In this document: piece by piece, positions 23,576 through 29,337 of the stretch
Layout of the letters: each line of letters begins with the position of its first letter
Numbering within the stretch: position 1 is the stretch's first letter
NCBI GenBank assembly: GCA_023621995.1
Contig: JAMOAB010000175.1
Location: 62,001 to 126,000, forward strand
DNA length: 64,000 bases
Source of the DNA: Bacillota bacterium
Lineage (GTDB): Bacteria; Bacillota; Clostridia; Caldicoprobacterales; Xylanivirgaceae
Direction: 5' to 3'
Position numbers and translations under genes: made by a program
Notes under the pieces: model-generated
What the model saw: only the letters and a program-made list of their open reading frames with translations
What the model was told of the DNA's origin: nothing
Database searches by the model: none

Positions 23576-24028
23576 TTAAGCTTTCATAAGTTTGCTGAAC
23601 CTTTCCATAACATCTTTTACCAATCCGTCCTCTTTAACAATTACTAAAATAGTGTCATCTCCTGCGATACATCCCATAATTTCCTTCCAATTTAATGCAT
23701 CTATAGCACCAGCAGCAGCCATAGCACTGCCAGATATAGTTTTAATAACAATCAAATTGTTTGCTGATTCCATAGACAAAACAGATTCGGAAAAGACCCT
23801 TATCAATCTCTCTGAAACAGTTCCCTCTTCCTTCTCAATAGTAGCATACTTGTAGACACCAGAAGGAGACATAACTTTTACCAATCTTAATTCTTTAATA
23901 TCTCTAGATACAGTTGCTTGAGTTACCTCAATACCCCGCTTTTTCAATTCTTCTGCTAACTGTTCTTGAGTTTCTATATCTTTCTCTGAAATAATTTCAA
24001 GTATTAGCGAGTGACGATTCATCTTCAT
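23576..24028 (-). CDS. argR: Arginine repressor ArgR
   Basis: '[18 protein letters not shown]' and 'GDDTILVI'. Confidence 0.97.
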
Positions 24029-24922: not shown

Positions 24923-25744
24923 TTAATTCAATTCCCTATGGGCACATTCCACAACAAGTGGTATTTCTTCAATGTAATTAAATTTTCCTATAGGAGTGAT
25001 AGAATTCTTGTAGAAGTGTGCTAGAAACTCTATATTCCCTTCAGGTCCTTTTATAGGTGAATAGGTAAGCCCCTTAACCTCCAAGCCTTCATTCTCTACA
25101 AACTTCAATATTTCAAACAGTACTTCTTGATGAACATCGGATTGACGAACAACCCCCTTTTTACCCACCTTGTCCACCCCTGCTTCAAACTGTGGCTTTA
25201 TCAAAGCTACTATATGGCTATCATGATCTAGCAATCGTTTGACAGCAGGGATAACTAGCTTTAAAGATATGAAGGAAACATCGATCACAGCACCTTGGGC
25301 TAAATCAGATAAAGCATCAGGTTCTAAATATCGTATATTAGTCCTCTCCAATACCACTACTCTACTATCTGTTCTTAGTTTCCAATCTAATTGTCCGTAA
25401 CCTACATCAATAGCATATACTTTTTTGGCCCTATTCTGAAGAAGACAGTCAGTAAAACCGCCTGTGGATGCACCAATATCTAAGAAAATACGTTCCTCAA
25501 CGGGTATTTTAAATATCTCAAGTCCTTTTTGCAGTTTTAATCCTCCACGACTGACATAGGGTATGGGGTCTTCCTTCACTTCAATGTTTGAACTGTAGGC
25601 TACTTTCGTTCCTGCCTTATCTATTCGAACCTTGTCTATATACACAACACCAGCCATAATAGCGCGCTGTGCCTTTTGCCTCGTATGGAAAAAACCCCTT
25701 TCTACTAATAGAATATCAATTCGCTCTTTCCTATTATCTTGCAT
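24923..25744 (-). CDS. tlyA: TlyA family rRNA 2'-O-methyltransferase
   Basis: S4 domain '[25 protein letters not shown]' plus '[15 protein letters not shown]'. Confidence 0.96.
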
Positions 25745-27623
25745 TAGTACGCTCCTTACATTCTCCTATTATGTTCTTTATTTCTTGTGCCAAATTATCT
25801 GCATCAAGTTGCAACTTTCTCAATAAAACATCTATGTTACCGTGGGGTATAAACATATCAGGTATTCCAAAATTCTTTATATCTACATTTAAACTATTAG
25901 CACTTAGAAATTCATTTATACTACTTCCAAATCCTCCTGCAACTATGTTGTCTTCAAGTGTTATCCATATTTTGTATCTATCATAAAGATCAAACAACAT
26001 CTGATCATCTAGTGGCTTAACTACCCTTGCATTTACCACTCCAACGTCTATGCCTTCAGCCTTTAGTAGTTCACGAATGTCGATGGCAGTAGATACCATT
26101 CTACCAACAGCTAATATTACACAATCTTGTCCTTCATATAATAATTCCCAGAAAGGTAATTTACTATTTTCTATGCTAAATAAGTTTGATCCATATCCTC
26201 TAGGATATCTTATTGCAATTGGCCCCTCAGCATGTCTAGAATACTCCAACATACCTTCTAATTCTTTAGTGTCCTTAGGAGCCATAACCGTCATATTAGG
26301 CATAGTACGTAAATAAGTCAAATCAAATACTCCTTGATGTGTCTCCCCATCTTCCCCTACTAAACCTGCTCTATCAATACAAAAAACAACTGGTAAATTT
26401 TGAATACACACATCATGAAGAATTTGATCATAAGCTCTTTGCAGAAAAGTTGAATATATAGCCACATAAGGCTTCATCCCATTTATTGCTAGCCCAGCTG
26501 CCATAGTAACTGCATGTTGCTCAGCTATTCCTACATCAAAAAATCTATGGCTGAATACCTCTTCAAAGTGAGAAAGACCTGTGCCTTCAGGCATGGCTGC
26601 ACAAACTGCAACTATACTCTCATCCTGCTTGGCCATTTCTACAAGCTTAGTACCAAAGATATGAGAATAACTATTTCCCTTGTTTTTTAACGGCCTCCCT
26701 GTTTCCACGTCAAAGGATGATACTCCGTGATATATTTCTGGATTTTTTTCTGCATATTCATAGCCCTTGCCTTTTTTAGTCACAACATGTACTAGTACAG
26801 GACCTTGTATATTCGACGCAATCTTAAAAACTTCTATTAAATTTGCTATATTATGGCCATCAATGGGCCCTATATAGGTGAAACCCATCTCTTCGAATAT
26901 TATCCCTGGCACAAAGATATATTTAAAACTATTTTTTAACCGTTCTGCTCCATATGCCATAGGGTTCCCTATCACAGGCGTTTTCTTAAGTACATGCTCT
27001 AGTTCTCTCTTGAACCAATTATATTGAGAACTCGATCGTATTTTTGAGAGATGTCTGGATAAGGCGCCAACATTTTCTGATATTGACATCTCATTGTCAT
27101 TTAACACAACAGTAAGCTTTGTGTTTGTATGGCCAGCATCATTTAAGGCTTCAAAGGCCATACCACCTGTCAGAGCACCATCACCAATAACGGCTATTAC
27201 ATTTCCATACTCACCTTTCAGATCGCGAGCCCGCGCCATACCTAGGGCTGCAGATATGGATGTACTACTGTGGCCTGTCTCAAAGATATCATGTATACTT
27301 TCCTTTCGCTTAGGAAAACCACTTATTCCACCGTACTGCCTTATTGTGTGAAAAACATCTTTCCTCTGTGTGATTATTTTATGCACATAAGATTGATGTC
27401 CTACATCCCATATTATCTTGTCAAATGGACTATTAAAGACATAATGAAGAGCAATAGTTAGCTCTACAACACCCAAATTAGATGCTAGATGCCCCCCTGT
27501 GCTAGAGATATTGTCTATAATAAATTCTCTTATTTCTTCTGATAATTGACGCAATTCGCCTATAGTAAGTTGTTTTATATCAGATGGAGAGTTTATACCA
27601 TCAAGTAGAGAATAGTCTTTCAA
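25734..27623 (-). CDS. dxs: 1-deoxy-D-xylulose-5-phosphate synthase
   Basis: '[19 protein letters not shown]', '[18 protein letters not shown]'. Confidence 0.98.
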
Positions 27624-27630
27624 GCCATTT

Positions 27631-28224
27631 TCACTCTTTCTTTTTATTTGTTTTTGTTTGCCTTTTAAAGTTTTTTATGTCAAAAACTGACAATATGTAA
27701 CCGACCGATAATACAATTTGTTGACTGTTTTCCATTGCGAAATTTTTACCAAACGCTTTTCCACCTACAGTCAAAGCAGCAATTAAACTACTTATCAATA
27801 TACTTAAAATAGTCTCATCTAATGTATTTCTCATTATAATTAATCTTGCAACCAATATAGTACCTGCAGAACCACTTAAAATTCCGCATATATCTCCTAT
27901 TACATCATTGCAAAAACTTGACACTCTACTAGCATTTTTTATCAATATAAGTGCCTCATTTGCTCCCCTGATTTTCTTGGATGCCATAGATAAAAATGGA
28001 ATATCGTCAGCAGCAGCTACTGCAACACCAACTATATCAAAAAGAACACCTACCAATATTATAAAAAAAATCGATAACAAAGCAAAAAAAGTATTTTCAA
28101 AGTTGCGAACAAATGCCTCAGAAAACATTCCCAATAAATAGGTCATTATTAAAGTTACAATTGAGATCTTTAAAAGCCAATATTTTTGGGATTTATTAAT
28201 CTTTTTCTGTTTTTTATTCGACAA
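27631..28224 (-). CDS. oapA: OLE-associated protein OapA (multi-pass membrane protein)
   Basis: 197-aa membrane protein immediately 3' of the OLE-type RNA and 5' of dxs; DxxxD motif in 'FCNDVIGDICGILSGSAG'; TTG start with GGAGTG RBS. Confidence 0.88.
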   Translation of the reverse strand: MSNKKQKKINKSQKYWLLKISIVTLIMTYLLGMFSEAFVRNFENTFFALLSIFFIILVGVLFDIVGVAVAAADDIPFLSMASKKIRGANEALILIKNASRVSSFCNDVIGDICGILSGSAGTILVARLIIMRNTLDETILSILISSLIAALTVGGKAFGKNFAMENSQQIVLSVGYILSVFDIKNFKRQTKTNKKKE

Positions 28225-28246
28225 CTATATCACTCCAAAATATTAA

Positions 28247-28837
28247 ATCCGGTGGTAATAGGCTGGATAAACTTTGCGGTTTATGGTCCAGTAGGATTTC
28301 CCAATCTAGTACTCTCTGTCACCAAAAGAGCGGTTTCCCTTTAAACCAGATTTTATCTTGTCGCCAAAGATAAAACTGGATCGCCTTATAACCACACCGT
28401 AATCCCCAGCCTATTCTTATCTGAAAGACAGTCTAGGAGCTTTCCTCTACAGCCAATACCAGCTTCTAGCCTCTTTTGCAGTATAGATTTCATATAGTAC
28501 AGTGATAAAACCTAAAGGGCCCTTTAGGTTTTATCCTTTAAGCTATAATCCGCCAATACCACTCAAGGCAGGCTACACTGCACACAGCTTTATAGCCGCA
28601 ATACAGGTTTAATCCCAAATAGTAGTATATATTCTCATACCACCAGTTTGGGTCTCCACGGAAGCGGGGTCGATCTCTGCATGCCTTTGCAGTCCGCCCT
28701 TCTTCCTTAACTTCCAGCACTAGCCCTCAACTGGGCGTCGAAAGCCAGCACCAGAAACTTCATCGATATGCCCTCAACGGATTTTTAGCCCCGTCTTCAA
28801 AGCTGGCTGTACTGACTAGAATACTGCACCACCAGAT
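28247..28837 (-). ncRNA. ole: OLE (ornate, large, extremophilic) RNA
   Basis: ~590-nt ORF-poor, structure-rich gap between the DUF212 gene and oapA in the ispA-OLE-oapA-dxs context; ends pair as AUCUGGUGGU / ACCACCGGAU; own promoter. Confidence 0.9.
28504..28535 (-). repeat. 32-bp perfect palindrome (hairpin) inside the OLE-type RNA
   Basis: GATAAAACCTAAAGGG|CCCTTTAGGTTTTATC. Confidence 0.9.
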
Positions 28838-28842
28838 CGATT

Positions 28843-28871
28843 ATTATAGCATATAAATTATACTGTTGCAA
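28843..28871 (-). promoter_or_regulatory. Sigma-A-like promoter for the OLE-type RNA
   Basis: TTGCAA - 17 nt - TATAAT on the minus strand, a few nt upstream of the RNA terminal stem. Confidence 0.8.
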
Positions 28872-28887
28872 CTTGAATAAATTGTAT

Positions 28888-29337
28888 TTATCTTAACATT
28901 ATCTTAGATATAATTATACCCAGTACTGCTCCAACAATAACCTCTACAGGAGTATGTCCTATCAGTTCTTTTAATTTTTTTTCAGGTATTTCTTTTTTTG
29001 TCTGTAGTATATCTATAATATCATTTAACACTTCAGCTTGTCTACCCGCTGCCCTTCTAACGCCGGCTGCATCATACATAACCACTAAGGCAAATGCTGT
29101 AGATAATGCAAACATAGTAGAGTCATATCCATGTACTTGTCCAATTGATGTAGCCATGGAAACTACAAATGCTGAATGTGAACTTGGCATTCCACCTGAT
29201 CCAATAAAACGTTTTATATCTAATCGCCTCTTAGCAAGTAATGTAATAATTACCTTTGAAGTCTGTGCAATTAGCCAAGCTAGGGCACTAACCCATATGA
29301 TAGAATTTTGCAATAGCTCATCTATAAAATTTTTCAT
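28888..29337 (-). CDS. Divergent PAP2 family protein (DUF212)
   Basis: 'GGMPSSHSAFVVSMATSIG' and 'VVMYDAAGVRRAAGRQAEVLN'. Confidence 0.95.
   Translation of the reverse strand: MKNFIDELLQNSIIWVSALAWLIAQTSKVIITLLAKRRLDIKRFIGSGGMPSSHSAFVVSMATSIGQVHGYDSTMFALSTAFALVVMYDAAGVRRAAGRQAEVLNDIIDILQTKKEIPEKKLKELIGHTPVEVIVGAVLGIIISKIMLR

Follow-up and report, generated by a model that had tools for sequence, protein, structure and literature searches.

OapA is defined as the protein that binds OLE RNA, at a ratio of at least 2:1, and localises this RNA to the membrane; to our knowledge, it is the universal partner of OLE RNA, whose chemical role has been a question for nearly 20 years. The gene for the OapA of Halalkalibacterium halodurans lies directly downstream of ole, and its product has four predicted transmembrane helices, a DxxxD motif, and a basic cytoplasmic cluster (PMC11332333, PMC12265935). 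OapA is required for the membrane localisation of OLE (PMC12265935), and the loss of OLE or OapA leads to Mg2+ sensitivity (PMC11332333). The main text of the latter paper, which treats OapA as a distant relative of the CNNM proteins, reports both the DxxxD motif and a missing proline.

The window, i.e., the whole 64,000-nt stretch of DNA analysed here, contains an OLE-oapA locus with the following features:

27631..28224, minus strand: oapA, encoding 197 aa, with a TTG start at 28224
28231..28236, minus strand: GGAGTG, the probable ribosome-binding site of oapA, read from the sequence
28236..28848, minus strand: full-length OLE RNA (model positions 1-616 of RF01071; 528.6 bits, E 3.5e-152)
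28888..29337, minus strand: divergent PAP2 family gene (DUF212), just upstream of OLE, found by family search
25734..27623, minus strand: dxs, beginning 7 nt past the oapA stop
23576..24028, minus strand: argR, downstream of OLE-oapA within this cluster

Beyond DUF212, further upstream of OLE, lie ispA, xseB, xseA, and folD, and dxs is followed by tlyA, nadK, argR, and recN. The same-strand order, folD-xseA-xseB-ispA-DUF212-OLE-oapA-dxs-tlyA-nadK-argR-recN, is of the type reported for OLE operons; the gene names were assigned by reading the translations, and the family search confirmed DUF212 only. Unpublished evidence has been cited for ArgR as a possible binder of OLE (PMC12265935, PMC12054373), and argR is part of the cluster here.

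The Rfam OLE match ends 11 nt ahead of the oapA TTG, and its last base is the first base of GGAGTG, which is spaced 6 nt from the TTG. The terminal pairing of OLE, AUCUGGUGGU with ACCACCGGAU as read from the sequence, is followed by exactly 22 nt and then the TTG. These positions agreed with the original prediction, which had described a 197-aa frame with a TTG start and a GGAGTG site (a plausible one), located 22 nt after the OLE terminal stem and preceding dxs. OLE RNA is present as a single copy in the whole 3.08-Mb assembly. When the same 900 nt were shuffled 2000 times, the longest open frame was 136 codons, and none reached the length of the oapA frame. The nearest relatives bearing species names belong to Caldicoprobacter (L038, L063), which places the genome in the Clostridia.

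A search of Pfam with the oapA product gave CNNM as the sole meaningful match, at 24.5 bits against a curated cut-off of 28.4, and an NCBIfam search gave nothing significant. Name comparison therefore leaves the protein unnamed, as the original prediction had anticipated; the label 'Mg/Co transporter-like', which it had offered as what names alone would yield, was not a false lead, since published work treats OapA as distantly related to CNNM (PMC11332333). Across the family, Pfam CNNM was matched by 43 of 67 members. An AF2 model built from 67 sequences (pLDDT 86.8) showed four long hydrophobic helices (6-41, 45-71, 98-131, and 137-165) and a juxtamembrane helix (167-181), in agreement with the predicted multi-transmembrane character of the protein; the four helices would insert into the membrane. 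The top four structural matches to the model were all CNNM/CorC proteins (7m1t, 7m1u, 7cff, and 7cfg, with Z of 14.1, 13.1, 12.3, and 12.2, respectively), of which 7m1t, MtCorB, superposed with an rmsd of 2.2 over 129 residues; the next, unrelated row had a Z of 8.1. Foldseek E-values to CorB were weak (0.02 at best), two OapA profiles found no match among PDB sequences, and a profile alignment of OapA with 12 CNNM sequences, MtCorB and TpCorC among them, gave 92%. According to the model, OapA is a CNNM/DUF21-type transmembrane core preceded by one extra N-terminal helix, and this core is expected to be a dimer. We regard the fold as confirmatory, because the same CNNM comparison was published for H. 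halodurans OapA in PMC11332333.

To place the protein on CorB, we read the register in three ways: from the ends of the structural match (43-5 and 181-138), from the ends of the Pfam match, and from the profile alignment. The following residues concern the ion site of CorB:

28036..28038, minus strand: codon of D63, invariant in 113 of 113 relatives
27892..27906, minus strand: DxxxD motif (codons of D107-V-I-G-D111), with both aspartates conserved in all 113 relatives
27745..27759, minus strand: codons of K156 to K160, with K156 in 112 and K160 in all of the 113 relatives

The reading of DVIGD as a DxxxD motif was thus borne out, in that it occupies residues 107-111 and both aspartates are invariant. 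All three register readings placed D63 on Ser25 of MtCorB, which is a Mg2+ ligand (PMC8242095). The profile alignment placed D107 on CorB Ser71 (Asn in bacteria), also a Mg2+ ligand, and K156, G159, K160, and A163 on Glu111, Pro114, Lys115, and Ala118, respectively, so that the position of the CorB ligand Glu111 is occupied by a lysine that is kept in all but one of the 113 sequences. D111 would fall on CorB Asn75 if helix 3 were ungapped; this pairing is conditional because hhalign opens a 4-residue gap in that helix. It thus appears that OapA has gained three acids in the site, together with a lysine in place of Glu111. Since D63 and the DxxxD motif occupy Mg2+-ligating positions of CorB/CorC, a divalent-cation site that has been rebuilt and is rich in acids is probable in OapA; with both Glu111 and Pro114 replaced, it cannot be taken for granted that OapA transports ions as CorB does.

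A second segment of interest is located between helices 2 and 3, a region that is on the cytoplasmic side in CorB:

27955..27990, minus strand: codons 79-90, the basic segment S-M-A-S-K-K-I-R-G-A-N-E, a candidate RNA-binding patch, degraded in OLE-free paralogues

Its core, S-K-K-I-R-G at 82-87, corresponds to the positive cytoplasmic cluster of OapA. The net charge of the segment is at least +2 in 96 of the 106 relatives outside the OLE-free clade described below; OLE-linked OapAs with a weak patch were found at L049 and L100-L102. The patch is still recognisable at L143, L145, L146, and L148, where OLE is elsewhere in the genome. It is also kept in three Bacilli loci (L089, L093, and L096) with no detectable OLE in about 2.9 kb of upstream sequence, and for this reason we expect these genomes to have OLE elsewhere. 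In genome G363, oapA (463486-464055) and OLE (666696-667310) are unlinked on contig C1, about 200 kb apart (L149, L211, L212), and in G329, of the same genus, they are on separate contigs.

Within the order, OLE was present in 16 of 30 genomes, and every intact OLE locus with enough downstream sequence carries an OapA-type protein immediately downstream on the same strand, as in the window. An alignment of thirteen OapAs of the order shows 45-73% identity and an invariant C-N-D-x-x-G-D. The class was covered by 391 genomes, of which 161 matched the OapA profile and 151 had OLE: both were present in 151, OLE only in 0, an OapA match only in 10, and neither in 230. In 113 distinct OapAs, G110 and G118 were invariant along with D63, D107, D111, and K160. 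In the species collection, for which the counts cover the best 80 loci, 73 loci have OLE directly upstream of oapA, at a distance of no more than 203 nt; of the other seven, four are at contig ends and three are without OLE despite room. The gene dxs comes next after oapA in 28 of 79 of these loci. In Pusillibacter faecalis, OLE-oapA is followed by dxs-tlyA-nadK, the same gene order as in the window. This set (OLE at 399.8 bits, oapA, dxs, tlyA, and nadK) is carried on pMM59_01 (L213, NZ_AP023421.1), a 504-kb plasmid typed as conjugative. A scan of viral contigs for OapA relatives found none.

We also considered that the protein might be a small CNNM/MpfA-type Mg2+ transporter that lies beside OLE by chance and does not need the RNA. 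The Pfam and structural matches to CNNM domains would fit such a protein, as would the OLE-free paralogues; however, the CNNM score is below the cut-off, the chain ends at residue 197 with no CBS pair or CorC/HlyC domain after the transmembrane domain, and K156 and G159 stand, in the aligned register, where the TM3 pi-helix of CNNM transporters has Glu111 and Pro114. In addition, the OapA family is present in 151 of 151 OLE genomes, and the true MpfA of this genome is a different gene on a different contig. A chance neighbour of this kind is therefore very improbable. The best explanation, in which we have high confidence, is that 27631..28224 encodes the membrane protein of the OLE ribonucleoprotein, OapA, as originally proposed. 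This identification rests on features shared with published OapA and on neighbourhood, namely adjacency to OLE and strict co-occurrence with it, the DxxxD motif, the basic patch, and a CNNM-like fold in which the CNNM proline is missing.

The genome encodes all four published protein partners of OLE: OapA, OapB, OapC, and bS21, the last as an orthologue. OapB is a 95-aa protein encoded between map and infA (L141:1180-1467), with 7k9b, 'OLE-associated protein B', as its best PDB match (E 9e-9). OapC is an 86-aa L7Ae-like protein encoded between rpoC and rpsL (L005:1459-1719), with the L7Ae-like protein 3v7e and YbxF 4lck as its best matches (E 1e-15). The original prediction had suggested a search for OapB as a single 'KOW-domain/L7Ae-like' partner; OapB was indeed found, but the description merges two proteins, OapB (KOW) and OapC (L7Ae-like, YbxF), both of which are encoded here. 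A search with KOW (PF00467) missed OapB; its matches were NusG, a NusG-like protein, and L24. The genome's only strong CNNM/MpfA gene (L002:890-2070; contig C58 of G000) ends at 356 aa, compared with 433 aa for a copy from the same genus and 425 aa for one from the same family. Past its stop, another frame encodes LPDVGERIEIANAEIIIESINKNRIEKLKIVM, which resembles the end of the CorC domain; the gene may be decaying, or the assembly may contain an error.

The published view is that OLE and OapA 'might never appear independently', in the words of PMC11332333. We found an OapA match without OLE in five genomes of one reduced-genome genus of the class (f8 g22); these genomes are 0.9-1.1 Mb in size and nearly complete (98-100%), and no OLE was detected in them even with lax filters. 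In G033, an 85-sequence OLE profile run at full sensitivity over all 862 kb gave a best E of 0.09, compared with 1e-113 and 1e-119 in related genomes. These five are what we count of the ten OapA-only genomes, G285, G179, G190, G326, and G328 having been set aside. OLE is present in G285, as a partial copy at a contig end; oapA is at a contig start in G179, which is 61% complete; and the OapA matches of G326 and G328 are marginal (E 2e-4 and 5e-5, respectively).

Seven copies of this paralogue were identified (L152 in G033, L153 in G193, L154 in G288, L155 in G318, L156 in G125, L159 in G071, and L160 in G302), and G071 and G302 have a separate OLE-linked oapA as well. Where examined (L152 and L155), the paralogue follows proS. 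An L20-leader-like element, detected as sub-threshold Rfam matches, lies just after it in six of the seven copies and is followed at L152 by infC-rpmI-rplT; in G318, an ArsP_2-type exporter comes next. The seven copies form a single clade (100/97) nested within an OLE-linked OapA clade; their most likely origin is therefore a duplication from OLE-linked ancestors. The paralogue keeps D63, D107, D111, K156, and K160 down to 44% identity, whereas the segment aligned with S-M-A-S-K-K-I-R-G-A is degraded, with a net charge of -1 to +2 compared with mostly +2 to +5 in the 106 other OapAs (rank test, p 2e-5, a value that overstates independence because the seven copies share one ancestry). The simplest reading is that the patch serves the RNA and the acids serve something else, probably ions. 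We lean towards the view that OapA can work without OLE and that the paralogue outlives the loss of OLE; with the acid/lysine core kept and the patch largely shed, the ion-handling core and RNA-binding surface would be separable modules.

These copies also bear on how OapA works once its identity is accepted. OapA might be only the membrane anchor of OLE, with a CNNM-like core that no longer moves or senses ions; the replacement of both the CorB ligand Glu111 and the pi-helix Pro114 agrees with such a role, as does the dependence of OLE localisation on OapA (PMC12265935). An anchor without its RNA should not keep the core residues, yet all five are fixed in the OLE-free, patch-degraded copies, and the Mg2+ sensitivity that follows the loss of OLE or OapA also argues against it. 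We therefore consider a pure anchor unlikely and prefer a role in ion handling. OapA would sit in the membrane as a CNNM-like dimer, and OLE RNA would dock on its cytoplasmic face via the basic patch, perhaps with help from N-terminal basic residues of OapA; membrane dimer and patch docking agree with the published H. halodurans work (PMC12265935). The D63/DxxxD site would handle or sense divalent cations, subject to modulation by the OLE ribonucleoprotein under stress, and OapA itself probably acts as a device for Mg2+/Mn2+ efflux or balance, or controls one. This proposal draws on the position of the residues, the Mg2+ phenotypes of OLE and OapA (PMC11332333, PMC10898510), and the persistence of the acids without the RNA. 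OLE RNA with OapB, OapC, and bS21 would then fill the regulatory place of the CBS and CorC domains of MpfA.

The mapping of D63 and DxxxD onto the CorB Mg2+ ligands names the residues to mutate for divalent-ion handling. The OLE-free clade, if upheld, is a natural control with the same core but without the RNA and its presumed docking patch, and a natural OLE-independent OapA, if true, would allow the contribution of the RNA to be isolated. The OLE-oapA locus of the window is clean and complete, and the same genome encodes the other partners.

Compared with MpfA, CorC, and CorB (CNNM, PF01595), the protein shares the transmembrane fold, with the Z-scores to MtCorB and TpCorC (7cff) given above, and K160 and A163 match Lys115 and Ala118. 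It differs in its extra N-terminal helix, the lack of a CBS or CorC domain, its score below the Pfam cut-off, the presence of Asp, Asp, and Lys at the Ser25, Ser/Asn71, and Glu111 positions, and Gly in place of Pro114. Compared by published features with H. halodurans OapA, it has the same gene position directly downstream of OLE, four transmembrane helices, DxxxD motif, basic cytoplasmic cluster, and CNNM-like fold without the conserved proline; the differences are that it comes from an uncultured relative of Caldicoprobacter and that its OLE binding is predicted. The oapA product thus matches published OLE biology: it is a well-formed OapA of an ordinary kind, and its locus is canonical.
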